A DNA stretch of 64,000 nucleotides from NCBI RefSeq assembly GCF_025717675.1, contig NZ_JAJIRT010000008.1, forward strand, positions 62,001 through 126,000. The letters run 5' to 3'. Numbering within the stretch: the stretch's first letter is position 1; the number at the start of each line of letters is the position of its first letter. The DNA is from Paucibacter sp. DJ2R-2. GTDB lineage: Bacteria > Pseudomonadota > Gammaproteobacteria > Burkholderiales > Burkholderiaceae_C. Under the pieces are notes generated by a model, which was given only the letters and a program-made list of their open reading frames with translations, had not been told where the DNA came from and searched no databases. This document shows positions 11,701 to 52,240 of the stretch, piece by piece. A program made the position numbers and the translations under genes.

Positions 11701-14700
11701 CTGCTGCTGCAATGGACCACGGCCGCGGCCGCACAGGCCGCAGCCGCGCGCAGCTGGCCGGCCGTGTTCGCCCGCCACCGCCGCGCCAGCCTGGGCGGCT
11801 TGCTGGCCCTGGCCGGCCTCTTGCTGGCCGGCACCGAGGCGGCGGCTCTGGCCACGGCCTTGTGCCTGCTCTGGGCCGCCACACCGCTCTGGGTCGGCTG
11901 GGCCAGCCGGCCGCAAGGCCTGATCGGCGGCCGCCGGTCCGAGCGCGTCAGCCTGCAAGAGCGCGCCTATTTGCGCGGCATCGCACGCGACACCTGGCGC
12001 TTCTTCGAGCGCTGCGTCGGCCCGCAAGACCGCCACCTGCCTCCCGACAATCTGCAGATGCTGCCGCAGGAGATGCTGGCCCATCGCAGCTCGCCGACCA
12101 ATATCGGCCTCTATCTGCTCAGCGTGGCCTGCGCACGCCAGTTCGGCTGGATAGGCACGGAAGAATTGATGCGCCGCCTGCAGGCCACGCTGGACAGCCT
12201 GGGCACGCTGGAGCGCCACCGCGGCCACTGGCTGAACTGGTACGACACCGAAACCGGCGCCGCCCTGCTGCCACGTTATGTCTCCACCGTGGACAGCGGC
12301 AACCTCTGTGGTCACCTGCTGGCGGTGGCCCAGGCCTGCCGCGCTTTGGCCTTGGCACCCTATGCCGCCGAGCCGGCCGCCGCTGCGGTACAGGATTCGC
12401 TGCAGCGCCTGCGCGAGCTGGCACCGCTGTGGCCGGAGCAGCCGCAAATCATGCTCAATCAGGGTTTGATGCGCCTGCTGCTGATCGAAAACCCCTTGCA
12501 GGAAGCGCGCCGCGCGCCGCAAGCTTTTGAGCAGCTGCTGCGCGAGGCCGCCGAGGGCATGGACGCGCTGAACCGGCTCGGGCCAGGCATCGATCCAAGC
12601 TCGGCGCGCCAGCGCCTGGCCTGGCTGCTGATCGATCACCTGAACACCTTGCGCTCGGCCCTGGAGGACCAGCTGGCGGCTTGCTTGCCCGCTGCGCAGC
12701 AAGCCGCCAGCGCTCGCCTGCTGGCCCTGGCGCAGCGCTGCGAGGCCCATGCCGGCGAACCCGACTTCGCCTTCCTCTACCACCCCAAGCGCCATTTGCT
12801 GCACATCGGCCTGCGCGTCGCCGAGCAGGAACTCGATGCCGGCTTCTACGACTTGCTGGCCTCGGAGTCGCGCCTGACCAGCCTTTGGGCCATGGCCAAG
12901 GGCGATGTGCCGGTGCGCCATTGGGCGGCGCTGGGCCGGCCCTTCTTCGCCGTCGGCCTGGCCGCAGGCCTGCGTTCCTGGTCGGGTTCCATGTTCGAGT
13001 ACCTGATGCCCAGCCTGATGCTGGACGAGCCGGTGGGCAGCGCCCTGCGCGAAGCCTGCCGCGCCGCCATCGAAGAGCAGATCGCGTTCACGGCCGCGGC
13101 TGGCCTGCCCTGGGGCATTTCGGAGTCGGCCTATGCTGGGCGCGACCACAGCCTGGCCTATCAGTACGCGCCCCAGGGCGTGCCCCGCCTGAGCCTGCGT
13201 CGCACGCCGCCCGACGAGTTGGTGATCGCGCCCTACGCCACCGCCCTGGCCGCGCAGCTGGAGCCACAACGGGCCTGCCGCAACTTCGAACGCCTGGAAG
13301 CGCTGGCGGCGCGCGGCCGCTACGGTTTCATCGAGGCCCTGGACTTCAGCCCGGCCCGCCAGGGCCAAGAGCAAGGTCCGGGCCTGCCCCAGGCCGGTCC
13401 GGCCGGCCATGTGCCGGTGGCCACCTTCATGGCCCACCACCAGGGCATGAGCATCGCCGCCCTGGCCAATGTGCTGCTGGCCGGCCAGGTACAGCGTTGG
13501 GGCATGGCCTGCGCGCCGCTGGAGGCGGTGGCCTCGCTGCTGCATGAGCGCTCGCCGCGCGAGATTTCGCGCCTCTACCAGGCGCCCGCGCTGCTGCCGG
13601 CCCAGGTTTTCGAGCGCCGCGCGGGCGGCCTGCTGCGCGAGGTCCACCCGGGCATGGCGGCGATCGAGCCGAGCCAGCTGCTGTCCAACGGCCGCTACCA
13701 GCTGAGCCTGCGCCCCAATGGCGCGGGTGCGTCGAACCTGGGCGCCATGGGCCTGAGCCGGCGCCGCGACGACGCCTTGCGCGACGAGTACGGCAGCTTC
13801 TTCTTCCTGCGCGGCCTGGACGCCGCGGCGCCGCAGCGCCTGGTCTCGCTGACCCAGCATCCGGCGCCCGATGCGGCCGCCCATTACCGCTGCAGCTTTC
13901 ACCCGGACCGGGTCTGCCTGAGCGCGCGCTGGCCGGGTCTGAGCAGCCAGCTGACCGTCTGGATCAGCCCCGAAGACGACATCGAGTTCCGCCAGGTGGA
14001 GCTGCACAACCTCGGCGAGCAGGACTTGGAACTGGAGCTGATCTCCGCCTTCGAGCCGACCCTGGCCGAGCCGCGCGCGGACGAGGCCCACCCGGCCTTC
14101 AGCAACCTGTTTCTGCGCGCCGAATGGAACCCGCAGCAACAAGCCCTGCTCTGGCAGCGCAAGGCACGCCTGCCCGGCGAGCCGGAGCTGCACCTGGCGC
14201 ATTTCCTGACCGAGCTGGTGCTCAGCGAAGACAGTGACGCGCCAGCCGAGCGCGGCTCGCTGCTCGGCCTAGCCGTGCAGACCGACCGCCAGCGCTGGCG
14301 TGGCCGGCTGCGGCCTGCCAGCCAGCCGCTGGGGCAGCTGCGTGCCGTGCCCGGCGGCCGGGAGTCGGTGACCCTGGACACCGGCCTCGATCCGGTCTGC
14401 GTGCTGGCCACCCGCCTGCGCATTGCCCCAGGCGCCAAGCTGACCCTGACCTTTGCCACGGCGGCCAGCCATCTGCCCGGCCTGCTCCATGCGGTGATCG
14501 ACAAATACCGCCAGGCCGCCCATGTGCAGCGCGCCTCGCTGATGTCGGCCACGCTGACCGGCATCCGTCTGCGCAGCCTGCGCATCAGCCCGGCCAATCT
14601 GGCCGCCGCCCAGACCCTGAGCACCGCCTTGCTGATGAGTTTGAGCCGGCCGCATCTGGCCCAGGCGGGCGCTGCCGGCTCCGGCACGGCACCGGATGCC

Positions 14701-17700
14701 TGCGACCGCAGCCTGCTCTGGCGTTTCGGCATCTCCGGGGACCAGCCCATCGTGCTGGTGCAAGCCGGCGTGATCGAAGGACTGGGCCTGCTGCGCAGCT
14801 TGGCGCAGGCCATGCGGATCTGGGCCTGGGCCGGTGTGGCCTGTGATCTGGTGGTGGTCAATGGCGAGGCTGCGTCCTACCAGATGAGCTTGCAGCGCGA
14901 GATCGCGGCCTTGCGCGAGCGCCATCTGGCCGAGTGCAGTGCGCAAGCGCAAATGCAGCAGCCCCCAGGCCAGCCCAGCCGCAGCGGCTTTCATCTGCTG
15001 CGCGCCGAGGAACTGAGCGCTGCCGAGTTCGCCAGCCTGCGCAGCCTCGCCTGCATCACCCTGGACGCCGACGGCCGCCCCCTGCACCACCATGTGCAGG
15101 CCTGGGCCGAACAGTTCGAGACGGCCTGCGCGCTGCGCCAGGACGGCGGAGCACTGAGCGTGCAGCTGCGCCCCATGCCGACACAGCAGCAGGCCGCGCC
15201 AGGCCAGTTCAATGCCGACGGCAGTCACTTTGAATTCGAGGTCAGCCCCCGGGAGCGGCCCGATCGACCCTGGATCAATGTGCTGGCGAATGCCGGCTTC
15301 GGCTGCCAGGTCTCCGACAGCGGCGCGGGCTACAGCTGGGCGGTCAACAGCCGCCTGCATCAGCTGACGGCCTGGTCCAACGACCCGGTGGCCGACACGC
15401 CGTCCGAATGGTGCCTGCTGCAAGACGAGCGCAGCCAGGAGACCTGGAGCTTGTGCCCCTCGGCCTGGGGCGACGGCGGGCCGGCCCAGGTGCGCCACGG
15501 CCAGGGCTGGAGCGAGATCAGCCAGCAGCGCGGCAGCCTGAGCTGGACCCTGGGCTGGTGCGTGGACAGCCGCCTGGCGATCAAGCAGCTGCAGATCAGC
15601 CTGCACAACAGCGGCGAGCGCGAGCGCCATCTGCGCCTGATTGGCCTGACGGAGTGGCTGATGGGGGCCAGCCGCAACGAGCGCATGAGCAGCCGCTGCA
15701 GCCATCTCCAGCAAGGCGGCGCCACCGCCCTCTTGTGCACCCAGAACGAAGCCTCGGCCGGCTTCGGCCAGAGCACGGCCTTCCTGGCCCTGCTGCCCAA
15801 GCTGACGGGGGCAGCCGGGGTGGCGGACCAAGGCTTTGAGGGTGAACGACTGGACTGGACCTGCGACCGGCGCGAGCTCTTCGACGCCCGCGGCCGCCTG
15901 CAGCTCCCTGACCATGGCGGCGAGGTCAGCGGCGCCGGCCTGGACCCTTGCGCCATGATCAGCCGCCGCTGGACCCTGGCCGCCGGTCAGCGCTGCGAGC
16001 ACAGCTTTCTGCTCGGCCACGCCGACAGCCCGGCAGCGGCCCAAGCCCTGCTCGCTCAGGCCCTGCAGCAGCCACCGTCCGCCCGGCTGCAAGCGGCCCG
16101 CGCCAGCTGGGACGAGCTGCTGAGCGCCACCGAGGTGCGAACGCCCGACCCCTTGTTTGACGCCATGGTCAACCGCTGGCTGCTGTACCAGACGCTGGCC
16201 TGCCGGCTCTGGGCCAAGGCGGGCTTCTACCAGGCCGGCGGCGCCAGCGGCTTCCGCGACCATCTGCAGGACGCCATGGCCCTGGCCTGGGCGGCGCCGG
16301 AGCTGCTGCGCGCGCAGATCCTGGAGGCCGCCGGGCGGCAGTTTGCCGAGGGCGATGTCCAGCACTGGTGGCATGCGCCGCTGGGCGCCGGCGTGCGCAC
16401 CCATTGCTCGGACGACCTGCTCTGGCTGCCCCTGGCCTGCCTGCACCATCTGCGCGCCAGCGGCGACGCCGGCCTGCTCAAGGAGGAGCTGCCCTTTCTC
16501 GACGGCGTGGCCATCCCCGAGCACGGCGAAGACCGCTATGCCCGGCCGGGGATCAGTTCCCAGAGCGCAAGCGTCTACGAACACGCGGCGCTGTGCATCG
16601 ACCACAGCCTGCGTGTCGGCGCCCATGGCCTGCCCCTGATCGGCACGGGCGACTGGAACGACGGCATGAACCTGGTCGGCCCGCAAGGCCGCGGCGAGTC
16701 GGTCTGGCTGGGCTGGTTTCTGTGCCGCCTGGTGGCCGACTTCGCGCCGCTGGCGATCGAACGCGGCCAGGACGAGCGGGCGCAGCGCTGGCTCAGCGCC
16801 GCTGAGGGCTGGCGGCACGCTCTGCTGGACCAGGCCTGGGACGGCGCCTGGTACCGGCGCGCTTTCTTCGACGAGGGCCAGGCCCTGGGCAGCCACGCCA
16901 ATGCGCAGGCCCGCATCGATTTGATCGCGCAGGCCTGGAGTGTGCTGTCGGGCGTGGCACCGCTGGCGCGGCAGCAAGAAGCGCTGGCCTCCATGGACGC
17001 GCTGCTGGTGGACGGCGAGGCGGGGCTGATACGCCTGCTGGACCCGCCCTTCCAGGACGCGAACCCGGAGTCAGCCCCCAAAAGCAAGACCGAGACCGAG
17101 ACCGAGGCCGAGCCCGCACCCAACCCGGGCTACATCCAGGCCTACCCGCCCGGCGTGCGCGAGAACGGCGGCCAGTACACCCACGCGGGCGTCTGGGCCC
17201 TGATGGCGCAGGCCGGCCTGGCTCTGCAATTGCACGAGGCCGCTGCAGGCGATCCAGAGGCAGCCGCGGCGCTGCGGCAACAGGCCGATGCGGCCGGCGA
17301 GCAGGTGTACCGTTACTTCCGCTACCTGTGTCCGGCGCATCGGGCCAGCGACCCCGGGCAAGGCTCGGTCTACGGCACCGAGCCCTATGCGGTGGCGGGC
17401 GATGTGTACAGCGCCCCGCCTTACACCGGGCGTGGCGGCTGGAGCTGGTACACCGGCTCGGCCGCCTGGCTGCACCGCGCGGCCATCGAGTCCATATTCG
17501 GCCTGCGCCTGAGCGCCCGCAGCCTGATGCTGCAGCCCTGCCTGCCCGCGGCCTGGCCGCGCGCCGAGCTGAGCCTGCGCCGCCACGGTCGCCTGATGCA
17601 CTTCACCTTGCTGCGCGGGGGCCAGGCGGCGGCCCAGGAGCTGGCTCAGGCCCAAGGTGCCCGGCTGCTGCAGCCAGGCGAGGCGCTGGACTGGCTGGGC

Positions 17701-17736
17701 CTGCCGCAGGAGGCGCACTTCGTGCTGCCGATCTGA
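8800..17736 (+). CDS. ndvB: Cyclic beta-1,2-glucan synthase (NdvB/Cgs type)
   Basis: 2978-aa inner-membrane enzyme that builds and cyclises beta-1,2-glucan from UDP-glucose; the product acts in the periplasm in osmotic adaptation and host interaction. Hydrophobic segments cluster near residues 445-510 and 865-1050. The GT84 glycosyltransferase region has DSDTQ (D668, D670), SHDLLEG (from 788) and HRWIRGDW (about 823), matching DxD and Q/RxxRW elements. Next come a glycoamylase-like domain, carbohydrate-binding repeats, and a C-terminal GH94 phosphorylase-like domain with DWNDG at about 2618-2622, the general-acid motif that sets chain length. All regions are present in one frame, so it looks complete. 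A low-complexity (K/T)E-rich stretch sits near 2760. It ends at a strong terminator. Confidence 0.93.
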   Translation: MGRLHRLNVGTWLARHVGPAFFFLTAAEPEAPALLNDMLDPQEGPVLAPIRSEIFGQQRFAQHGRSLAATHRVLAVHEQGRGQTFFPRLRSNVASLRRAHRFLAAQASTGFDISPAAEWLLDNFHLIEAQLKEVHEGLPRRYFRALPVLQDPPLAGLPRVYGVAWAFVAHTDGAFDEELLVHFLCAYQEVRPLNLGEMWALPTTLRVVLIENLRRLAERVAGQKAARELANQCCDRIERLGLAELDQQLAGLRQRGLDQAFLAQMAQRLLHRAGNSNPVADTPLQQAGAELRRAWLLQALPDPAGAQLQQAAEQTADNLSVSNAVSSLRVIGEADWPEIVARSSPLMQLLLNCDSFAAEHSRTRDQTLHGIETLARRCGRSELGVAQVLIDVMLCPHAGGAPVPPHAQTAGHWLQGEGRPALLQALGLQESASLLWRAALRRHALVLYLGGLGLGCAALLAGLARFDPALAAAPWPWLLACLALMLLPASEAWLALMNRLLSESLRPAQLPRLALAEGIAPTQRVLVVMPVLLSDAATIAELAHRLQLHQLANPEAQAQFALLSDWADADSASLPGDQALLDAAVAAIRALNLATPVAAGAPARFLLLHRQRRFSDSEQRWIGWERKRGKLEQLVEALAQGENSGLAFADLGPLSQTAPHTRYLLTLDSDTQMPPGRLRELVGVAAHPRNEPRLSPADAAGQAGPRRVVAGYAILQPRVVTPLPARGDFTPYHWLFAGQCGLDPYGSASSETYQDLFDEGSFTGKGLLHVQALQAVLNGRLPEGQVLSHDLLEGALARCAAVSDISLVEDAPFHADVAASRVHRWIRGDWQLLPFLLPRRWSQQALRLGALNRWKLLDNLRRSLVAPASLLLLLLSLALPAGLWLAPGLALALVLAAHLAGPLLGALAGLLPSHGGFAPGHFWLRGLTELARALLGSLWQLALLLEQSALALDAIVRALWRSGHSHRLLLQWTTAAAAQAAAARSWPAVFARHRRASLGGLLALAGLLLAGTEAAALATALCLLWAATPLWVGWASRPQGLIGGRRSERVSLQERAYLRGIARDTWRFFERCVGPQDRHLPPDNLQMLPQEMLAHRSSPTNIGLYLLSVACARQFGWIGTEELMRRLQATLDSLGTLERHRGHWLNWYDTETGAALLPRYVSTVDSGNLCGHLLAVAQACRALALAPYAAEPAAAAVQDSLQRLRELAPLWPEQPQIMLNQGLMRLLLIENPLQEARRAPQAFEQLLREAAEGMDALNRLGPGIDPSSARQRLAWLLIDHLNTLRSALEDQLAACLPAAQQAASARLLALAQRCEAHAGEPDFAFLYHPKRHLLHIGLRVAEQELDAGFYDLLASESRLTSLWAMAKGDVPVRHWAALGRPFFAVGLAAGLRSWSGSMFEYLMPSLMLDEPVGSALREACRAAIEEQIAFTAAAGLPWGISESAYAGRDHSLAYQYAPQGVPRLSLRRTPPDELVIAPYATALAAQLEPQRACRNFERLEALAARGRYGFIEALDFSPARQGQEQGPGLPQAGPAGHVPVATFMAHHQGMSIAALANVLLAGQVQRWGMACAPLEAVASLLHERSPREISRLYQAPALLPAQVFERRAGGLLREVHPGMAAIEPSQLLSNGRYQLSLRPNGAGASNLGAMGLSRRRDDALRDEYGSFFFLRGLDAAAPQRLVSLTQHPAPDAAAHYRCSFHPDRVCLSARWPGLSSQLTVWISPEDDIEFRQVELHNLGEQDLELELISAFEPTLAEPRADEAHPAFSNLFLRAEWNPQQQALLWQRKARLPGEPELHLAHFLTELVLSEDSDAPAERGSLLGLAVQTDRQRWRGRLRPASQPLGQLRAVPGGRESVTLDTGLDPVCVLATRLRIAPGAKLTLTFATAASHLPGLLHAVIDKYRQAAHVQRASLMSATLTGIRLRSLRISPANLAAAQTLSTALLMSLSRPHLAQAGAAGSGTAPDACDRSLLWRFGISGDQPIVLVQAGVIEGLGLLRSLAQAMRIWAWAGVACDLVVVNGEAASYQMSLQREIAALRERHLAECSAQAQMQQPPGQPSRSGFHLLRAEELSAAEFASLRSLACITLDADGRPLHHHVQAWAEQFETACALRQDGGALSVQLRPMPTQQQAAPGQFNADGSHFEFEVSPRERPDRPWINVLANAGFGCQVSDSGAGYSWAVNSRLHQLTAWSNDPVADTPSEWCLLQDERSQETWSLCPSAWGDGGPAQVRHGQGWSEISQQRGSLSWTLGWCVDSRLAIKQLQISLHNSGERERHLRLIGLTEWLMGASRNERMSSRCSHLQQGGATALLCTQNEASAGFGQSTAFLALLPKLTGAAGVADQGFEGERLDWTCDRRELFDARGRLQLPDHGGEVSGAGLDPCAMISRRWTLAAGQRCEHSFLLGHADSPAAAQALLAQALQQPPSARLQAARASWDELLSATEVRTPDPLFDAMVNRWLLYQTLACRLWAKAGFYQAGGASGFRDHLQDAMALAWAAPELLRAQILEAAGRQFAEGDVQHWWHAPLGAGVRTHCSDDLLWLPLACLHHLRASGDAGLLKEELPFLDGVAIPEHGEDRYARPGISSQSASVYEHAALCIDHSLRVGAHGLPLIGTGDWNDGMNLVGPQGRGESVWLGWFLCRLVADFAPLAIERGQDERAQRWLSAAEGWRHALLDQAWDGAWYRRAFFDEGQALGSHANAQARIDLIAQAWSVLSGVAPLARQQEALASMDALLVDGEAGLIRLLDPPFQDANPESAPKSKTETETEAEPAPNPGYIQAYPPGVRENGGQYTHAGVWALMAQAGLALQLHEAAAGDPEAAAALRQQADAAGEQVYRYFRYLCPAHRASDPGQGSVYGTEPYAVAGDVYSAPPYTGRGGWSWYTGSAAWLHRAAIESIFGLRLSARSLMLQPCLPAAWPRAELSLRRHGRLMHFTLLRGGQAAAQELAQAQGARLLQPGEALDWLGLPQEAHFVLPI

Positions 17737-42434: not shown

Positions 42435-43064
42435 ATGAAGCGCTCGCCCTACGCGCGGCGCCGCCTGCTGGCGGCCGGCCTCGCGGCAAGCGGCCTGCTG
42501 GGCGCCGGCCTGCTCTGGGCGCGCCAGCGCTCGCCGGCCGCGGCAGCAGCCCTGCCGGTGGACGATTTCTGCGTGCTGGCACCGCCGCTGGCCTATGAGC
42601 CGAGCTCGGGCCTGGGCCTGCTGCAGGCTCGACTCATCCCGGCCGATGCGCGCTGCCCGGTCTGCGGCATGTTCCCGGCGCGTGCGCCGGAGTGGGCGGC
42701 GCAGCTGATCTTCAGCGACGGCGCTACGCAGTTCTTCGATTCGCCGGTGTCCATGCTGATCTATCTGCAGGACGTCGGCCGCTATGCGCGTGGCCGCAGT
42801 GTCACCGATGTCGTAGCACGTTATGTCCGTGACGCGGGCGGCAACCGTGCTCAGCCAGGCGCCTGGCTGGACGCCGGCCAGGCCGTCTTCGTCAGCGGCT
42901 CCGACGCTCTGGGGCCGATGCGGGCCGGCAATCTGCCGGCTTTTGCCGACCGCGCCGCGGCGCTGGCCTTCGCGCAGCGGCGCGGTGGCCAAGCGCTGCG
43001 CCTGGCCGAGGTGCCGCGTTCCCTGCTGAAGCAATTGGATCCAAGAGCCCATCTCGGGCATTGA
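42435..43064 (+). CDS. Second NosL-like protein with CPVCGM motif
   Basis: 209-aa exported protein. A Tat-like or membrane-anchor N-terminus ([20 protein letters not shown]) is followed by a NosL domain with CPVCGM (about residues 74-79), FSDGATQFFDSP and a C-terminal AALAFAQRRGG segment like NosL/NosL-type copper chaperones. It lacks a lipobox. It lies directly after nosL in the operon, so the two may act at different steps of copper delivery to NosZ, or this one may serve another enzyme. Only its family is supported by sequence. Confidence 0.8.
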   Translation: MKRSPYARRRLLAAGLAASGLLGAGLLWARQRSPAAAAALPVDDFCVLAPPLAYEPSSGLGLLQARLIPADARCPVCGMFPARAPEWAAQLIFSDGATQFFDSPVSMLIYLQDVGRYARGRSVTDVVARYVRDAGGNRAQPGAWLDAGQAVFVSGSDALGPMRAGNLPAFADRAAALAFAQRRGGQALRLAEVPRSLLKQLDPRAHLGH

Positions 43065-43096
43065 GGCGCCGGAGCGGGGGGAAGTGCAGCCCTGTC

Positions 43097-43495
43097 ATGA
43101 TGGCCGTCATGACTGTCATCCAGCAGCTGCGAAACTGGGCCCGTCGTCTCAAGCGCGATGGCCTGAGCCTGTGGTTCGCCGGCCGCCACCCGGGCACGCC
43201 CTGGCATGCCAAGGCCCTGGCCGCCCTGGTCGTGGCCTATGCCTTGAGCCCCATCGACCTGATCCCGGACTTCATCCCTGTGCTGGGCTATCTCGACGAT
43301 TTGCTGCTGTTGCCCATCCTGATCCATCTCGGCCTGCGCCTGCTGCCGCCCGAGGTGCTGGCGGACTGCCGGCGCCTGGCCGAGGACTGGCTGCGCCAGG
43401 AAAAACGCAAGCCGGTGTCCTGGCTCGGTGCGGCCCTGGTCCTGCTGGTCTGGCTGGCCGCCACGATGGCGGTCTGGCTTGCCCTGCGGCGTTGA
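43097..43495 (+). CDS. YkvA family (DUF1232) membrane protein
   Basis: 132-aa protein with the DUF1232 core ALSPIDLIPDFIPVLGYLDDLLLLP (quoted in part; about residues 55-78) and a C-terminal hydrophobic segment (about 108-128). The function of DUF1232 proteins is unknown. It follows the second nosL gene by 32 bp and precedes norC on the same strand; its link to denitrification may be only positional. Start ATG 43097 or 43100. Confidence 0.82.
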   Translation: MMAVMTVIQQLRNWARRLKRDGLSLWFAGRHPGTPWHAKALAALVVAYALSPIDLIPDFIPVLGYLDDLLLLPILIHLGLRLLPPEVLADCRRLAEDWLRQEKRKPVSWLGAALVLLVWLAATMAVWLALRR

Positions 43496-43541
43496 GCGGG
43501 GCGCGCCCCCGCCGAAAGCGCTGGTAGCAGAGCCGATTTCC

Positions 43542-43555
43542 TTGTTCCGGTTCAA
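43542..43555. promoter_or_regulatory. Degenerate DNR-type box upstream of norC
   Basis: TTGTTCCGGTTCAA keeps one good half-site (TTCAA) and a mutated one (TTGTT). A TAGTCT hexamer (43578-43583) is centred 32 bp from the box centre, in the same place as in the other promoters of the cluster. It lies 65-78 bp upstream of norC. Confidence 0.5.
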
Positions 43556-43619
43556 GGAAGCGGCTGACATAAGTCCCTAGTCTTGCGGCATCTGCAACAG
43601 ACCCTGAGGACGGACCATC

Positions 43620-44040
43620 ATGAGCCGAGGCTTCACCAGCCAGATGGCGCGCAATATCTTCTACGGAGGCACCTTGTTCTTCGTGCTGCTGTTCGCCGCG
43701 CTGATCTTCGACACCGAGCAAAGAATTCCCAAGCGGTCCAATGCCGGCGAACTGACGCCGGCCGTGGTGCGCGGCAAGCACATCTGGGAAACCCGCAACT
43801 GCATCGGCTGCCACACCCTGCTCGGCGAAGGCGCCTATTTCGCGCCCGAGCTGGGCAATGTCTACAAGCGCCGCGGCCCTGACTTCATCAAGGCCTGGAT
43901 CAAGGCCCAGCCGACCGGCGCCCCCGGCCGCCGCCAGATGCCCAACTTCCAGCTCGACGACAAGCAGCTCGATGACCTCGTTGAGTTCCTCAGGTGGACG
44001 AACGGTATCGACACTGAAAAGTGGCCGCCGAATGTCGAAG

Positions 44041-44045
<5 letters not shown>
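43620..44045 (+). CDS. norC: Nitric oxide reductase subunit C (cytochrome c)
   Basis: 141-aa membrane-anchored monohaem cytochrome that passes electrons to NorB. One N-terminal membrane segment (residues 12-30), then a periplasmic domain with haem motif CIGCH (C61, C64, H65) and axial Met in RRQMPNF (about 120). Family-typical TEQRIPKRSNAG and LLGEGAYFAPELG are present. It is first gene of the nor operon, with a DNR-like box upstream. Its stop codon lies inside the first unit of a 77-bp tandem repeat. Confidence 0.96.
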
Positions 44046-45665
<1,620 letters not shown>

Positions 45666-45667
45666 GC

Positions 45668-46477
45668 ATGGAAATGCACAGTGCCAGGCAGTTGCAACAA
45701 CTGCCCTTCTATGCGCCCCAAGGCGAGGAGTGCCGGCTCTTCGAGCAGGCCCATGCCAGCCGCCTGCCCCTGCTGATCAAGGGCCCGACCGGCTGCGGCA
45801 AGACCCGCCTGGTCGAGCATATGGCGGCCCGGCTGGGCCGGCCGCTGATCACGGTCAGCTGCCATGACGACCTCAGCGCGGCCGACCTGGTCGGCCGCCA
45901 CCTGATCCAGGGCGGCGACACGCGCTGGTGCGACGGCCCGCTGACCCGGGCCGTTCGCGAAGGCGCGATCTGCTATCTGGACGAGGTGGTCGAGGCGCGC
46001 AAGGACACCACCGTGGTCCTGCACCCGCTGGCCGATGACCGGCGCCAGCTGGCCATCGAGCGCACCGGCGAGCTGCTGCAGGCCGCGCCCGGCTTCATGC
46101 TGGTGATCAGCTACAACCCCGGCTACCAGAACCTGCTCAAGGGCCTGAAGCCCAGCACCCGCCAGCGCTTCGTCGCCCTGGGCCTGGACTACCCGGCGCC
46201 TGACATCGAGCGCGCCATCGTCGCCAGCGAAAGTGGCTGCTCCGCCGAGGTGGCCGCCCAGCTGGTCCGCCTGGCCCAGGCCCTGCGCCGGCTGACCGAG
46301 CAAGACCTGGAAGAAACCGCCAGCACCCGGCTGCTGGTGATGGCGGCGCGCCTGCATGTGGCCGGCCTGGCCCTGCTGCCCGCCTGCCGCGCGGCCATCG
46401 TCGACGCGCTGACGGACGAGGCCGACACCGGCGCCGCCCTGCACGAGGTGCTGCGCGCGGTGATCGGTGATGCCTGA
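45668..46477 (+). CDS. norQ: NorQ, MoxR-type AAA+ ATPase for NOR activation
   Basis: 269-aa AAA+ ATPase: Walker A GPTGCGKTRL (about residues 39-48), Walker B ICYLDEVVEA, sensor region ISYNPGYQ and arginine finger LKPSTRQRF. With NorD it inserts the non-haem iron into NorB, like the CbbQ/NirQ family. Starts 2 bp after the norB stop and overlaps the next gene by 8 bp. Confidence 0.94.
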   Translation: MEMHSARQLQQLPFYAPQGEECRLFEQAHASRLPLLIKGPTGCGKTRLVEHMAARLGRPLITVSCHDDLSAADLVGRHLIQGGDTRWCDGPLTRAVREGAICYLDEVVEARKDTTVVLHPLADDRRQLAIERTGELLQAAPGFMLVISYNPGYQNLLKGLKPSTRQRFVALGLDYPAPDIERAIVASESGCSAEVAAQLVRLAQALRRLTEQDLEETASTRLLVMAARLHVAGLALLPACRAAIVDALTDEADTGAALHEVLRAVIGDA

Positions 46478-47465
46478 TCCTGGCCCCGCGACGGGCTCTT
46501 CTGTTCAGCACAGCCAGCGGCTGCAGCGCCGCCGGCGCGCCACGCAGCTGGCTTTCTTCGCCCTCTTCCTGCTGGCGCCGGCGCTGAACCTGCTTCGCTT
46601 CGACCTCAACGAAACACAGCTTTGGGTCTTGGGCCAGCGCTGGAGTCTGGGCATCAGCGCCCTGCAGCGCGGCGAGGTCAGCGCCAATCAAGCGGCCCTG
46701 AGCCTGATCCTGCGCGGCATCCTGCCGGGCCTGGCCCTGGTGGCGCTCTTTCTCGGTGTGGCCTGGCGTTGGGGCCGGCTGTACTGCGGCTGGCTGTGCC
46801 CACATTTCTCGCTGGTCGAGGGCCTGAACGCCTTGCTGCACAAGGCCTGCGGCAAATTCAGCCTCTGGGACGAGCAGGCCAGCCTGCGGCCGGGCGAGAC
46901 CGCGCAGCGCCGCTGGTGGCCGGTCTATGCCTTGAGCTGCGCGGGTTTCGGCTTTCTCTGGGCCATCACCCTGCTGACCTATCTGCTGCCGCCGCAAGCG
47001 ATCTGGGGCGGCCTGCTGCAAGGCACACTGACCGTCAACCAGAGCCGCTTCATCCTGATTGCCGGCAGCGCCTTCACCCTGGAGCTTCTGTTCGCCCGCC
47101 ACCTGTTCTGCCGCTTCGGCTGCGCCATCGGCCTGTTCCAGAGCCTGGCCTGGATGGCCAACCCGCGCGCCTTGGTCGTGGTCTTCAAGCGCGAACGCGC
47201 CAGCGACTGCCGGACCTGCAGCACCGAGCGTGCGCCCGAGGGCAGCGCCTGCGACCGCGTCTGCCCGATGCGGCTGCGGCCGCGCCAGATCAAGCGCCTG
47301 ATGTTCTCCTGCGTGCAATGCGGCCGCTGCGTGGACCAATGCGCCGAGTCGCAACAGGCGCAGCCGCAGCTGCCCCAGCCCCAGCTGGAATGGACAGTGG
47401 GCGTGGACGCGCTGCGTGAGACGCTGCGTCAATCGCAAAAAAACAGCAACAGAACCGACCCTTGA
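46470..47465 (+). CDS. 4Fe-4S membrane protein inserted between norQ and norD (NapH/CcoG-like)
   Basis: 331-aa inner-membrane protein with four to five membrane segments (about residues 24-40, 70-95, 140-165, 185-205) and two CxxxCP-type sites next to them: YCGWLCPHFS and FCRFGCAIG. The C-terminal cytoplasmic part has Cys groups CRTCSTE...CDRVCP and CVQCGRCVDQC for [4Fe-4S] clusters. The plan is that of NapH/CcoG/NosR C-terminal polyferredoxins. Within a nor operon it might supply electrons or help metal insertion into NorB; this is inference. It is overlapped by norQ and 16 bp from norD. ATG 46470 is preferred to GTG 46467. Confidence 0.83.
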   Translation: MPDPGPATGSSVQHSQRLQRRRRATQLAFFALFLLAPALNLLRFDLNETQLWVLGQRWSLGISALQRGEVSANQAALSLILRGILPGLALVALFLGVAWRWGRLYCGWLCPHFSLVEGLNALLHKACGKFSLWDEQASLRPGETAQRRWWPVYALSCAGFGFLWAITLLTYLLPPQAIWGGLLQGTLTVNQSRFILIAGSAFTLELLFARHLFCRFGCAIGLFQSLAWMANPRALVVVFKRERASDCRTCSTERAPEGSACDRVCPMRLRPRQIKRLMFSCVQCGRCVDQCAESQQAQPQLPQPQLEWTVGVDALRETLRQSQKNSNRTDP

Positions 47466-47481
47466 AGTAGGAAGTTAGACC

Positions 47482-49344
47482 ATGGAAGAGTGGATCGGCG
47501 AACGCTGGCATCGCTTCATCACCGGAGCCGCCGAGCGCGGCCATGCCGGGGCCGCCGTGGCTCTGCCCGATGTGCAGCAGGCCGCCGGCCTGCTCTACCG
47601 CGCCGCCGGCGGCAGCCACAGCCTGCGCATCGTGCCCGCGGCCGATATGCGCATCGGCGGCCCGCGCCACTGGCTGCAGCGCCTGGCCGGCAGCGGCACG
47701 CGCGCCGCACTGCCACGCCTGGACACCGAGACCCTGGCCCTGCCGCCGCGCATCGCCCTGTTCGAGCAGGCGGAACTGAACCGCGACCTCTACCTCTGGC
47801 TGGCCGCCCTGGCCGCCTGCTTCGAACTCGGTGCCAGCGGCAGCTGGGCGGGCGACAACCTCGCCGCTTGCCAGTTGGCCCTGCAGCGCTGCCCGGGCCT
47901 GCGGCCGCGCTGGCTGCGCTTGCGCGAGGCCCATCTGGCCCAACGCCGCGCCGAGGCCGTGGCGCTGCGCACGCCCGAGGCGCGGGCGGCTGAGGCGCGC
48001 CTGCAAGCCCTGCTGCTGGCCGAGCCCGGGCTGGCCAGCATCGATGGCAGCTTCGATGTCGAGGCCCCGCTGCTGGCCCCGGTTTGGCTGTGGCTGCAGG
48101 CCCTGCCTGCGGCCGCGGCGGGAGCGACGGGCCAGGCACGCAGCGCGGCCGCGAGCGGTGGGTCACAAGCGCAACAAGAACAAGAGCAAGCGAAACGCCG
48201 CCGCGCCCGCCCGACCAAGCCGGCCTCGCAGAGGGCGCCGCTGCTGCTGGCCTCCAAGGCCGAGTCCCTGCGCAGCTGGAGCGAGCATGTGCCCCTGGAC
48301 CGGGCCAGCGAGGACGAGACCGACGAAGACGAGGCACGCGCCGCGGCCGACGATATGGAGGAGCTGACGCTGGCGCGCGAGGGCTCGGCCAGCGCCGCCC
48401 GCATCAAGTTCGACCTCGACCTGCCCAGCGCCAGCGCCGACGACCTGCCCCTGGGCGAGGGCGAGTCACTGCCCGAATGGGACTGGAAGCGGCAATGCCT
48501 GCTGCCCGAACATTGCTGGGTGCAGACCCTGGTGGCGCGACCGAGCGGTCCGGCGTTCTCGCCCCAAGCCGCCTTGCGCCAGACCGCACGCCGCCTGCGC
48601 CGCCGGCTCGAAACCTTGCGCAGCGCGCCGCAGTGGCAGCGCGGCTGCAACGAGGGTGAGGTGCTCGATCTCGATGCCTGGGTGCGGCATCTGGGCGGCC
48701 TGCACGCCAGCAGCAGCCCCGAGCCCCAAGTCTGGGCCCGGCGCCAGCGCAGCGAGCGCAGCCTGGCCACCTTGCTGCTGGCCGATCTGTCCCTGTCCAC
48801 CGACGCCTATGCCAACAACGAGCAGCGCGTGATCGATGTGATCCGCGATGCGCTCTATGTCTTCGGCGAGGCCTTGCATGGCTGCGGCGACCCCTTTGCC
48901 ATGCTGGGCTTCAGCTCGGTGCGGCGCAGCCAGGTGCGCATCCATCAAATCAAGGGTTTCGAGGAAGCCTGGTCCGGCCCGGTGCAAAGCCGGGTCGGCG
49001 CGATCAAGCCTGGCTACTACACCCGCATGGGCGCAGCGATTCGCCTGGCCACACGCCGGCTGCAAGAGCGCCCCGAGCGCCAGCGCCTGCTGCTGCTGCT
49101 GACCGACGGCAAGCCCAATGACCTCGATGTCTACGAGGGCCGCTGGGGCATCGAGGACACGCGCGAAGCGGTGCGCGAGGCGCGCCGCGCCGGCCTGCAG
49201 CCCTTTTGCCTGAGCATCGACGAGCAGGCCCAGGACTATCTGCCCCATCTCTTCGGCCACCAGGGCTGGGCCCGCGTGGCCCGCCCGACCGAGCTGCCGC
49301 TGCGCCTGGCCGGCGTCTACAGCCGGTTGACGCGCGGCGTTTGA
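47482..49344 (+). CDS. norD: NorD, VWA-domain NOR activation protein
   Basis: 620-aa cytoplasmic protein partnering NorQ in FeB insertion. N-terminal helical region (1-210), an Ala/Gln/Arg-rich charged linker (about 215-310), and a C-terminal von Willebrand A domain with MIDAS motif DLSLSTDAY (about 433-441), GYYTRMGAAIR and LLLTDGKPNDLD. Length and order match the NorD/CbbO family. Last gene of the nor operon; a large inverted-repeat element starts at its stop codon. Confidence 0.93.
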   Translation: MEEWIGERWHRFITGAAERGHAGAAVALPDVQQAAGLLYRAAGGSHSLRIVPAADMRIGGPRHWLQRLAGSGTRAALPRLDTETLALPPRIALFEQAELNRDLYLWLAALAACFELGASGSWAGDNLAACQLALQRCPGLRPRWLRLREAHLAQRRAEAVALRTPEARAAEARLQALLLAEPGLASIDGSFDVEAPLLAPVWLWLQALPAAAAGATGQARSAAASGGSQAQQEQEQAKRRRARPTKPASQRAPLLLASKAESLRSWSEHVPLDRASEDETDEDEARAAADDMEELTLAREGSASAARIKFDLDLPSASADDLPLGEGESLPEWDWKRQCLLPEHCWVQTLVARPSGPAFSPQAALRQTARRLRRRLETLRSAPQWQRGCNEGEVLDLDAWVRHLGGLHASSSPEPQVWARRQRSERSLATLLLADLSLSTDAYANNEQRVIDVIRDALYVFGEALHGCGDPFAMLGFSSVRRSQVRIHQIKGFEEAWSGPVQSRVGAIKPGYYTRMGAAIRLATRRLQERPERQRLLLLLTDGKPNDLDVYEGRWGIEDTREAVREARRAGLQPFCLSIDEQAQDYLPHLFGHQGWARVARPTELPLRLAGVYSRLTRGV

Positions 49345-49483
49345 GGGTGAGAGTTTTTCTACTGCGCGCTCGCCATGCGTCGTTGGTCCGGTGCTCGGAA
49401 TCCTCACGTACATTGAGTACGCTCCGGTTCCTGCGCTCCGTCCGCCTAGCCTGACAAACGCTCGCTACGAAAAACTCTCACCC
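49345..49483. repeat. 139-bp symmetric inverted-repeat element
   Basis: Ends are a perfect 14-bp inverted repeat, GGGTGAGAGTTTTT (49345-49358) and AAAAACTCTCACCC (49470-49483). The exact centre is CGTAC-ATTGA-GTACG (49407-49421). Between ends and centre the arms match only partly. It starts immediately after the norD stop codon and could terminate transcription in either direction. No open frame inside; it resembles a non-autonomous or repetitive extragenic element. The rest of the gap to 49610 carries the DNR-type box. Confidence 0.85.
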
Positions 49484-49532
49484 CTCTGTGTGCGAGCGAG
49501 CAAACCAGCACGCCGGCACCAACTCCGCGCGC

Positions 49533-49546
49533 TTGAGACAGATCAA
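49533..49546. promoter_or_regulatory. DNR/FNR-type box upstream of the first crp gene
   Basis: TTGAGACAGATCAA, a 14-bp TTGA-N6-TCAA site followed by GGCG as at nos and nap. A GACAAT hexamer (49569-49574) is centred 32 bp downstream of the box centre, giving class II geometry. It implies that the gene is activated by an FNR-like protein or by its own product. Confidence 0.78.
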
Positions 49547-49610
49547 GGCGGCGCGCCGCAGCGCTCTCGACAATGGCGGCATCTCAAGCCCCCCAGACCG
49601 GAGCCCCGTC

Positions 49611-50321
49611 ATGGACATGCGCGCCTTTGACCTTCCTCGTTACCTCTCCGTGCTGCCTTTGTTCACCGATCTCAGTGCTCCGGAGCTGGCCCGCCTGGCG
49701 CAAGGCTGCAGCCTGCGTCGTCTGACCCGCGGCGACCCGGTGTTCCGCGTTGGCCAGCCTTGCGAGGAGTTCCATGTCACCGTCACCGGGCAGGTCAAGC
49801 TCTTTGCCATCTCGCCGGCGGGCCAGGAGAAGGTGATCGAGCTGGTGGGGCCGGGAAACAGCTTCGCCGAAGCCCTCATGTTCACCGGCAGGCCCTACAT
49901 CATCAATGCCCAGGCCCTGACCGACACCTTGCTGCTCTCGGTGTCCAAGCAGGCGGTGCTGACCGAGATCGAGCATGACAGCCGCTTCGCCTTGCGCATG
50001 CTGGCGGGCATCTCACGCCGCCTGCACGGTCTGGTCCATGATGTCCAGGCCTATGCCCTGCACAGTGGCGTGCAGCGCGTGATCGGCTACCTGCTGCGCG
50101 ACCAGCTGGCCGAGGACCGCGTCAGCGGCGAGATGGTCACGGTGTCCCTGCCCGTGAGCAAAGCCACCATCGCCTCGCGCCTGAGCCTGACGCCCGAATA
50201 CTTCTCGCGCGTGCTGCATGAACTCGAAGCCGCGGGCTTGATCGAAGTGGACAAGCGCGACATCCGCATTCGAGATGTCGCCAGCCTGGCGGCCTATACC
50301 GGCGGCCAGCAAGCGGGCTGA
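49611..50321 (+). CDS. Crp/Fnr regulator, DNR/NNR type, first copy
   Basis: 236-aa regulator: beta-roll sensor domain (about residues 15-125), dimer helix and winged helix VSKATIASRLSLTPEYFSRVLHEL. The recognition helix carries E-x-x-S-R (EYFSR), the FNR/DNR signature for TTGA half-sites. It lacks the N-terminal cysteines of oxygen-sensing FNR, so NO sensing through haem, as in DNR, is likely. ATG 49611 follows GGAG by seven bases; ATG 49617 is an alternative. It is flanked by TTGA-type boxes and sits between nor and ccm/nap, so it probably controls them. Confidence 0.88.
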   Translation: MDMRAFDLPRYLSVLPLFTDLSAPELARLAQGCSLRRLTRGDPVFRVGQPCEEFHVTVTGQVKLFAISPAGQEKVIELVGPGNSFAEALMFTGRPYIINAQALTDTLLLSVSKQAVLTEIEHDSRFALRMLAGISRRLHGLVHDVQAYALHSGVQRVIGYLLRDQLAEDRVSGEMVTVSLPVSKATIASRLSLTPEYFSRVLHELEAAGLIEVDKRDIRIRDVASLAAYTGGQQAG

Positions 50322-50471: not shown

Positions 50472-51182
50472 ATGCCCACTGCCCATCGTTCTACTGCCTC
50501 TGAGTTGCCACGATACATGGCGGTTCATCCCATGTTCCAGGGCCTGAGTGAAGCGGATCTCGGCCTGATCGTGGACCAAGGCAGCAGCTTGATGCGCCTG
50601 CCTCGCGGCCAGGCCCTGTTCAGCAGCGGCGAGACCTGCGAGCACTTGATGATCATCATCACGGGGCAGGTCAAGGTGTTCGCCTTGGCCACCCATGGCG
50701 GGGAAAAGGTGCTGGAGCTGATCGGGCCCGGACAAACCATCGGTGAGTCGTCGATCTTCAACGACCAGCCCCAGGCATTCAATGCGCAGACCCTGACGGA
50801 AGCGCTGCTGCTGCGCATCCCCAAGCGCGCCATCACGGCCCAGATCAAGCGCGACCCCGGTTTTGCCTTGCGTCTGCTGGCCGACGCATCGCAACGCATC
50901 CGCGGCCTGCAGCACGATGTGGAGAGCTATTGCCTGCGCAGCGGCCTGCAGCGTGTCGTCGGTTTCCTGCTGGAAGACCAGCGGCACAGCCCCGAACGGC
51001 GCGCGCCCCACACGGTGTCGCTGCCCGTCAGCAAGGCCACGATCGCCTCGCGCCTGAGCTTGACCCCCGAGTATTTCTCACGGGTGCTGCGCGAGCTGGA
51101 GGACGAAGGCCTGATTCAAATCTCGCGGCGCGACATCCACATCCTGCAGCCCGAGGAATTGGCGAGTTACACCCTGCAATGA
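50472..51182 (+). CDS. Crp/Fnr regulator, DNR/NNR type, second copy
   Basis: 236-aa paralogue of the preceding regulator, with the same beta-roll and an almost identical winged helix (VSLPVSKATIASRLSLTP and EYFSRVLREL). The sensor halves differ far more than the DNA-binding halves, so the two probably read different signals but bind the same sites. No FNR-type cysteine set. Its stop overlaps the start of the NirF-like gene (ATGA), making the regulator the first gene of a long operon that may run into ccm. Confidence 0.88.
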   Translation: MPTAHRSTASELPRYMAVHPMFQGLSEADLGLIVDQGSSLMRLPRGQALFSSGETCEHLMIIITGQVKVFALATHGGEKVLELIGPGQTIGESSIFNDQPQAFNAQTLTEALLLRIPKRAITAQIKRDPGFALRLLADASQRIRGLQHDVESYCLRSGLQRVVGFLLEDQRHSPERRAPHTVSLPVSKATIASRLSLTPEYFSRVLRELEDEGLIQISRRDIHILQPEELASYTLQ

Positions 51183-52240
51183 GCAGCTGCTGTTTCAGCA
51201 CCGGTGCCGGTTCGCGGCTGGGCCGTGGCCTGGCCGCTTGCCTGGGTGTCCTCGCCTTGCTGCCCGGTGCATCTGCGGGCGGCGAGGCCAGCACGCTCGC
51301 CGCAGTCGAATCCAAGGCTGAGGTTCTGAACTGTGCCGACCTGCCGCCCCTGCTCGCCTCCAAGAACCGCCAGCTGGTGCTGGCATCGCGAGACGGATGG
51401 GTGGCCGTGTTTGACATGAACCCAAGCAGCCTGCGGCAGGAGCGACGGGTCGCCTCCTCACTCGAAGCCTTGGCCCTGAGCAGCGATGGCCGCTGGCTGC
51501 TGGCCAGCACCGAGCAGGCCAGCGCCTTGCAGCTCTTCGATGGACGGCTGCAGCCGGTCAAGACGATTGCCTTGCAAAGCCTGGACGGCCGGCAGCGCAC
51601 GCGCGTCGCGGCCATTCGCGACCTTCCGGAACGCCGCAGCTTTCTGGTCGCGCTGCAGGACCTGGCTGAGGTCTGGGAGATTTCATACGACCCGCTGGCA
51701 GAAGAAGTCCATGACGGTCTGGTCCATGACTACCGCATGGGCGAAGCCCTGGGCAAGCCGGGATTTCTGCATCCGCGACGCACACCGCTGGAAGCGCCCG
51801 TGATGGACTGGCTGAAGGGCACAGCCGCCCCTCACATCTGGCTCACCTTGCAGCCCAGGGCGGGCGGCGGGCTGCGGCTGCAGCTGCTCCACCTCGATGT
51901 TCGCCGCGCCATCGCCAGCATGCCGCTCAGCCGCGCCGTGAAGCTGAGCGCGGGCCTGCTCTTTGAGCGACAAGGCCATCCCGTCCTGGCCGTTCCGGCG
52001 CAGGATCAGGGTCAGGACCCGTTGGAGTTCATCGAGCTCCAGCGCCTTCACCCACCGCTTGGCCTGGACCTGCCCAGGATCGCAAACGCTGTGGGCCAGG
52101 CCCAGAGCGCGTCGCTGACTGACGCTCTGCGAAAGTTACCGTGGAGCCAGCTGAAAGGGCACTACCCCAGGCCGACCGCTGCTGCTGATGCGGCGGAACC
52201 GGCAGACCCCTGCGTAGGCGTCAATGGAGCAGAGTCATGA
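51179..52240 (+). CDS. Exported cytochrome d1/NirF-like beta-propeller protein
   Basis: 353 aa. Signal peptide about residues 12-35 (AACLGVLALLPGASA), then repeated blade-like segments such as LVLASRDGWVAVFDM, LALSSDGRWLLASTEQ and VALQDLAEVWEI. The pattern resembles the haem d1-domain proteins NirF/NirN and other propellers, but the typical haem-binding histidines of NirS cannot be assigned by eye, and no CxxCH is present. Start and stop overlap the crp gene upstream and ccmA downstream (ATGA at both ends). A role in haem d1 or denitrification is inferred from context; it may be a divergent propeller of other function. Confidence 0.6.
   Translation: MSSCCFSTGAGSRLGRGLAACLGVLALLPGASAGGEASTLAAVESKAEVLNCADLPPLLASKNRQLVLASRDGWVAVFDMNPSSLRQERRVASSLEALALSSDGRWLLASTEQASALQLFDGRLQPVKTIALQSLDGRQRTRVAAIRDLPERRSFLVALQDLAEVWEISYDPLAEEVHDGLVHDYRMGEALGKPGFLHPRRTPLEAPVMDWLKGTAAPHIWLTLQPRAGGGLRLQLLHLDVRRAIASMPLSRAVKLSAGLLFERQGHPVLAVPAQDQGQDPLEFIELQRLHPPLGLDLPRIANAVGQAQSASLTDALRKLPWSQLKGHYPRPTAAADAAEPADPCVGVNGAES

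Follow-up and report, generated by a model that had tools for sequence, protein, structure and literature searches.

A membrane polyferredoxin encoded between norQ and norD, a candidate accessory protein for iron insertion into nitric oxide reductase

The gene that we describe here is located between norQ and norD and encodes a membrane polyferredoxin, for which we use the working name FdX (the product of the gene in the norQ-norD interval of the window, the whole stretch of 64,000 nucleotides that was analyzed). It is genetically coupled to norQ and norD, its product belongs to the same superfamily as CcoG, NapH and NosR, and all FdX sequences compared conserve the same cysteines and two histidines. 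The position between norQ and norD is kept in many relatives, and FdX is therefore probably a helper in preparing or delivering the iron of FeB. As a tentative proposal that may well be right, we suggest that FdX is a dedicated accessory protein of cNOR that forms part of the NorQ/NorD iron-insertion module and keeps iron ferrous for FeB insertion.

Layout of the nor operon

The window (G000:C44:62001-126000) belongs to a host genome whose closest relatives among the matches listed are Burkholderiales of the Roseateles/Paucibacter kind. Its nor genes are all located on the forward strand and start with norC (43620..44045; Pfam Cytochrom_C), encoding the cytochrome c subunit, and norB (44223..45665; Pfam COX1), encoding the catalytic subunit, which belongs to the heme-copper oxidase superfamily. 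These are followed by norQ (45668..46477; Pfam AAA_5 and CbbQ_C), encoding a MoxR-type AAA+ ATPase, by the FdX gene (46470..47465), an open reading frame of 331 codons with an ATG start, and by norD (47482..49344; identified as an open reading frame and by Pfam), encoding a VWA protein that contains a DxSxS sequence, which we take to be the MIDAS signature. The norQ and FdX genes share coordinates 46470-46477, which confirms the position between norQ and norD and the 8-bp overlap reported by an earlier, sequence-only reading of this DNA, and a gap of 16 bp separates the FdX stop codon from the norD start. An in-frame GTG at 46467, adjacent to the ATG, is also possible as the FdX start. Upstream of norC, a nos cluster (nosZ, a gene for a NosR-like protein, nosD and nosL) runs into the nor genes, and norD is followed by two Crp-type regulators and then by cytochrome c maturation genes. 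A scan of window positions 43000-49700 found no sigma-70-like promoter. Other features of the window are a gene for a DUF1232 protein between nosL and norC (43061-43495), a gene (50930-52240) that lies between one for a Crp-type regulator and those for cytochrome c maturation and whose product has a segment similar to cytochrome d1 (PF02239), and an open reading frame of 2978 aa (8800-17736).

Family placement of FdX

The sequence-only reading had described FdX as a NapH/CcoG-like protein with two CxxxC and two ferredoxin motifs. The motifs and the superfamily hold, whereas membership of the NapH or the CcoG family does not. Thus, FdX has the Fer4_5 domain (the single Pfam match above cut-off, Fer4_18 falling below it), hydropathy peaks, and both pairs of motifs, which are the features of the CcoG/NapH/NosR membrane polyferredoxin superfamily; however, it scores 51 bits against the NCBIfam model for CcoG (TIGR02745; cut-off 316.7) and 47 bits against that for NapH (TIGR02163; cut-off 213.05). 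Four divergent FdX relatives score 50-56 bits for CcoG and 43-72 bits for NapH, and two of the four are higher for NapH. Pfam gave no match in FdX to FixG_C, the C-terminal Ig-like domain, and no NosR/NirI-type periplasmic FMN-binding domain was matched in its 331 residues, in which Fer4 families alone were found.

Our main tree contained 87 proteins, including 32 FdX, 17 CcoG and 11 NapH, and was built without four entries whose picked open reading frame is NapG-like by its motifs (L209, L213, L215 and L221) and without a short NapH row (L218; 216 aa). FdX (100/100, stem 2.24), CcoG (100/100) and NapH (99/100) each formed a single clade, with FdX outside the other two. FdX, CcoG and a set of proteins that we call X grouped together (98/88), apart from NapH and NosR, and the node that bears on whether X or CcoG is the sister of FdX has a support of just 85/35. 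In a larger quick tree with 63 FdX rows, which still held the four NapG-like frames among its NapH rows, FdX and CcoG were again single clades. A tight clustering with CcoG, against which the sequence-only reading had set its own proposal, was therefore not seen; FdX forms a separate clade, to which CcoG is closer than NapH or NosR. The X proteins are CcoG-like and score below the CcoG cut-off; together with CcoG they are the nearest neighbours of FdX outside its clade. One of them has a cytochrome c gene and a short gene similar to COX1 in its vicinity (L248:3647-4972, genome G029), and two others occur in tandem (L249:3652-6387, genome G001).

Two proteins of the host genome, with scores of 512 and 491 bits, pass the family cut-off as true CcoGs, and a NapH is encoded there as well. 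Within an 80-genome CcoG sample, a CcoG over cut-off was present in all eight strong FdX carriers (G000, G006, G014, G018, G026, G037, G053 and G061), and FdX is therefore no stand-in for CcoG. The possibility that FdX is itself a CcoG orthologue was rejected: it scores below the CcoG cut-off, forms its own clade, and its host has two true CcoGs.

Conserved residues and predicted topology

The two CxxxC motifs are C106-C110 (YCGWLCPHF; 46785..46799), with His112 directly after the first CxxxC-P (CPH), and C214-C218 (RHLFCRFGCA; 47109..47123), preceded by His211. The first ferredoxin motif (C247, C250, C261 and C265; 47208..47264) reads CxxC-x10-CxxxCP, that is, with a stretched loop and then CPMRL, and this loop measures 3-13 residues in the 97 of 110 FdX sequences that fit the pattern. 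The second (C281, C284, C287 and C291; 47310..47342) has the spacing CxxCxxCxxxC. All four motifs are encoded on the forward strand, and their 12 cysteines, together with His112 and His211, are invariant in 110/110 FdX sequences, the one of the window included. The conservation of the 12 cysteines and the recurrence of the order norQ-FdX-norD in the best 80 of 557 relatives (see below) imply that the presence of this gene in the operon is not due to chance.

The two histidines differ in their distribution over related families, for which 12 NapH sequences remained after four NapH rows had been set aside as wrong open reading frames. A histidine at position 112 is absent from all other groups compared (0/17 CcoG, 0/20 X, 0/12 NapH and 0/6 NosR) and from YccM. 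A histidine at position 211 (RHLFC) is present in 20/20 X proteins, in YccM and in 4/12 NapH, and in none of the 17 CcoG or six NosR proteins.

Hydropathy analysis of FdX gives about four membrane helices and a weaker fifth peak at residues 212-230, and arginines are abundant in the N-terminus and present beside the first CxxxC motif. Together, hydropathy and arginines point to a cytoplasmic location of both CxxxC motifs and of the ferredoxin part. An AlphaFold2 model based on 47 close relatives is of moderate to low confidence (mean pLDDT 67.5, pTM 0.62), with pLDDT values around 50 or lower over a large portion of its ferredoxin region. A Foldseek search of the PDB with this low-confidence model yielded 31 matches at E <= 10, none of which reached E <= 0.001, and we base no conclusion on the model. 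A sequence search of the PDB with FdX gave a single match at chance level (E 0.14).

Several known systems resemble FdX. CcoG/FixG/RdxA, the cupric reductase for CuB of cbb3 oxidase, shares with it the membrane core and the two CxxxC and two ferredoxin motifs; it is the nearest named family to FdX in the tree and, according to the passages concerned of PMC7558416, an assembly factor of a heme-copper superfamily enzyme. FdX differs from CcoG by the lack of FixG_C, its own clade, the two histidines and its norQD setting. The quinol dehydrogenase ferredoxin subunit NapH/MauN is of similar size and also has CxxxC pairs and two ferredoxin motifs, but it falls outside the group of CcoG, X and FdX and has no CPH. 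The C-terminal domain of NosR/NirI, an accessory protein of a denitrification enzyme, has a membrane core with two CX3CP (relevant part of PMC5928378); unlike NosR/NirI, FdX has no matched periplasmic FMN domain, and it forms a separate clade. E. coli YccM, described in a section of PMC7558416 as a short CcoG homologue without an Ig domain, shares with FdX the absence of this domain and the RH before the second CxxxC, but it has no CPH, is not encoded in a nor locus and falls in the tree beside NosR, on a long branch of unsure place, apart from FdX. Finally, norE/norF and norQ/norD are, like the FdX gene, cNOR accessory genes in one operon, although their products have no Pfam family in common with FdX. 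A replacement of NorE/NorF by FdX was rejected, since FdX coexists with norE and norF.

Gene order in related loci

The sequence-only reading had pointed to the order norQ-FdX-norD as a feature to be traced across genomes, and this order indeed recurs in many relatives. In the best 80 of 557 confirmed relatives, which are the nearest ones, all Burkholderiales-like and not a random sample, the nearest recognised neighbours of FdX were norQ upstream and norD downstream, on the same strand, in 80/80 loci; genes were recognised with 23 query proteins, and an unrecognised one may therefore intervene. A further 52 loci, comprising a phylum sample, an order sample and three plasmids, contained 49 FdX matches, or 44 without five second fetches of the same genomes. 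In 36 of the 49 (32 of 44), FdX was located between norQ, or norQ plus the small gene sTM (see below), on one side and norD or a bacterioferritin gene on the other, with the longest gap between FdX and norD, up to 5.3 kb, in L182. Six matches were at a contig end or had no norD nearby; in G301, G341 and G429 there was no norD within 4.6-6.3 kb downstream of FdX.

The remaining seven (6 of 44) differ in gene order: L177, where FdX is in two pieces, G159, which was read twice, Thiothrix, Amphritea, and a second copy in G434. In Thiothrix (pTfr153) the order is norC-norB-two genes-FdX-nnrS, with no norQ or norD in the 16.7 kb covered, within about 8 kb of FdX; in Amphritea it is norC-norB-FdX-norE-norF-norQ-norD; and in G159 it is norC-norB-FdX-norD-norE-norF, with norQ on the other strand. 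The second copy of G434 is unbroken and follows norE-norF (L176:7830-8726). The G434 copy near norQD (L177:7227-8318) reads as two pieces, owing to either a broken frame or an assembly error.

In all three loci in which norCB and norQD are clearly separated, FdX stays with norQD. The two are 28 kb apart in G300 and on opposite strands in G317, and in G278 norCB is on another contig, the 6 kb upstream of norQ being free of recognised nor genes. Two more genomes were not counted as clear splits: G306, which agrees, with norCB fragments at contig ends and norE-norF-norQ-sTM-FdX-norD on another contig, and G394, in which the short contig with FdX allows no judgement. A comparison of mirror distances over 76 loci did not support norQD over norCB as the partner of FdX: the correlations with norB (r 0.90), norQ (0.87) and norD (0.87) were similar, and the partial correlations favoured norB (0.52, versus 0.23 for norQ and 0.18 for norD).

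The interval between norQ and norD may contain further genes. In G275 the order is norQ-sTM-FdX-bfr-norD, with gaps of 14 bp between FdX and the bacterioferritin gene bfr and of 11 bp between bfr and norD. G314, which belongs to this genus too, has norQ-sTM-bfr-norD and no FdX match. These bacterioferritin genes (L184:5188-5655 in G275 and L150:11501-11968 in G314) encode a product that matches Pfam Ferritin (E 2.7e-35). Of the five genomes of the family that were searched, G354 has FdX without a bacterioferritin gene, and two others have loci cut by contig ends; the link is thus seen in a single genus and may go back to a single event. G159 also has a bacterioferritin-like gene, located 1.2 kb upstream of norC, but a gene on the opposite strand intervenes and we did not count it.

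The sTM gene encodes a membrane protein of about 130 aa and lies between norQ and FdX in many loci, including L169-L174, L177, L178, L182-L186 and L188. It also occurs between norQ and norD in three FdX-free loci (L150, L151 and L153), and the operon of the window does not contain it. One of the two copies scanned was faintly similar to DUF4870, below the cut-off.

Distribution of FdX

A search of 249 Pseudomonadota genomes with FdX gave matches at E <= 1e-8 in 39 genomes, mostly remote ones to CcoG-like proteins or NapH. Ten genomes had a strong match (E <= 1e-60), and in all ten norB shares at least 67% identity with that of the window. A norB of this kind was present in 16 of the 249 genomes, six of which do not have FdX, and FdX was found in none of the 18 genomes with a norB of 54-61% identity. 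Among 300 Burkholderiales genomes, FdX (E <= 1e-40) was present in 31, of which 30 have a window-type norB (at least 62% identity); the exception is G385, whose genome is fragmented and has FdX next to sTM, norQ and norE. A window-type norB occurs in 52 of the 300 genomes and is without FdX in 22 of them, and FdX was found in 0/22 of the Burkholderiales genomes with a lower-identity norB. The co-occurrence of FdX and norB in the 300 genomes (Fisher p ~4e-26) is uncorrected for relatedness, these figures being species counts and not independent events. FdX is thus not general to the NOR type of the window, and FdX-free lineages manage without it.

Discussion

The sequence-only reading had proposed a role for FdX in NOR assembly, FeB insertion or electron supply. 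A dedicated link with NOR is supported by our results; of the roles, assembly and FeB insertion are favoured because FdX stays with norQD in the clear splits, because its redox centres are predicted to be cytoplasmic and because of the bacterioferritin gene in the interval (one genus), and electron supply is disfavoured.

NorQD is needed for FeB insertion, and in published models it opens cNOR (PMC9976466 and PMC13036017, in the parts that concern NorQD). The 2023 model proposes cytosolic Fe2+ or chaperones/ferritin as the source of the FeB iron (PMC9976466, same part). CcoG, for its part, supports assembly of CuB of cbb3 oxidase (PMC7558416, relevant passages). From these two roles we therefore propose FdX as the FeB counterpart of CcoG, that is, as a cytoplasm-facing iron-sulfur reductase or carrier. 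The ferredoxin clusters and CxxxC pairs of FdX would be on the cytoplasmic side, which is where NorQD acts. Electrons from quinol or from a soluble donor would enter the clusters and reach iron that is held close to the CxxxC pairs and to His112 and His211. The iron would be kept ferrous in this way, or freed from a ferric store, and Fe(II) would be ready when NorQD opens NorB for FeB loading. FdX would then play for the FeB of cNOR the part that the cupric reductase CcoG plays for the CuB of cbb3 oxidase. Both the contact between FdX and NorQD and iron as the substrate of FdX are steps that we infer. It is possible, though we consider it doubtful, that the parallel goes further and that there are related assembly reductases specific for each metal of the binuclear centre, with CcoG serving CuB, and FdX, an iron reductase or carrier with His112 as its own residue and with a His211 that CcoG lacks, providing the missing iron-supply step for FeB.

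Several observations count against the proposed role in FeB insertion. Firstly, according to the passages on its activity in PMC7558416, CcoG acts as a reductase on Cu(II) but not on Fe(III). Secondly, the six-gene P. denitrificans norCBQDEF gives active cNOR in E. coli, and the passages of PMC9976466 that describe this operon name no FdX-like gene in it. Thirdly, 22 of the 52 Burkholderiales with the same NOR type do not have FdX, gene order has exceptions, the partial correlations favour norB, two of four divergent relatives are nearer to NapH by score, and the bacterioferritin gene is confined to one genus. Many relatives are without FdX, and its benefit is therefore probably conditional, for example on low iron, oxygen or NO stress.

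An alternative that we regard as unlikely is that FdX is a NapH-like quinol oxidase that supplies electrons to cNOR, or to the cytochromes that act with it, by a route around the bc1 complex. NapH and NosR share this membrane core, and electron transfer in the direction of periplasmic reductases is the role proposed for them (PMC5928378, part on these proteins). FdX is sometimes nearer to norCB than to norQD (Thiothrix, Amphritea and G159), norB matches the mirror distances no worse than norQD does, with the partial correlations on the side of norB, and the higher NapH scores of two divergent relatives would also fit. However, NorC is periplasmic, whereas the clusters of FdX are predicted to lie on the cytoplasmic side; neither in the window nor in the three annotated plasmid loci is FdX directly flanked by a NapG-like gene; FdX leaves norCB in the three clear splits; and the tree groups it with CcoG, not with NapH.

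Less likely still is a role of FdX in the maturation of NOR, general or on the heme side (heme b3 or NorC), or in sensing of NO or iron-sulfur stress. The FdX gene also occurs beside norE-norF and nnrS, whose roles are loosely defined, which would agree with such a role, but no heme or sensor domain was found in FdX, the Pfam matches being to Fer4 families only.

The enzyme cNOR is not known to contain copper, which argues against the view that FdX is a CcoG paralogue serving the copper enzymes of denitrification or respiration, placed in the nor operon for co-regulation only. We consider this view improbable, also because the host already has two true CcoGs over cut-off, FixG_C was not found in FdX, and FdX is located between norQ and norD in all of the best 80 of 557 loci; on the other hand, FdX groups with CcoG in the tree, a nos cluster adjoins the nor genes in the window, and CcoG has the copper specificity mentioned above (PMC7558416, same passages). 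Least probable of all is that FdX reduces an ATP-site disulfide that switches NorQ off: a C46-C68 disulfide inactivates NorQ of P. denitrificans (PMC13036017, part on NorQ) and the pair C43-C65 of the NorQ of the window has the same spacing, but the idea is weakened by the observation that the NorQ cysteine pair does not track FdX, being present in 96 of 104 FdX loci, and so missing from eight, versus 15 of 17 FdX-free loci.

Among the matches listed in a full-text literature search, from which subscription papers are mostly absent, no published description of the FdX gene was found. A Dechloromonas genome paper, in the part that lists these genes, names norD, norQ, norE, norB and norC and gives two unnamed locus numbers between norD and norQ. 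By our reading, and not that of the paper, this pair would fit sTM-FdX.

The three annotated plasmid records name the FdX product "4Fe-4S binding protein", and because records say just this, a model of the FdX family would improve annotation. For the step by which iron reaches FeB of nitric oxide reductase, an enzyme that forms N2O, FdX is now a named candidate. The role proposed for FdX in the NorQ/NorD module makes the iron supply of FeB directly testable, by the addition of one gene to the expression of norCBQD in E. coli.
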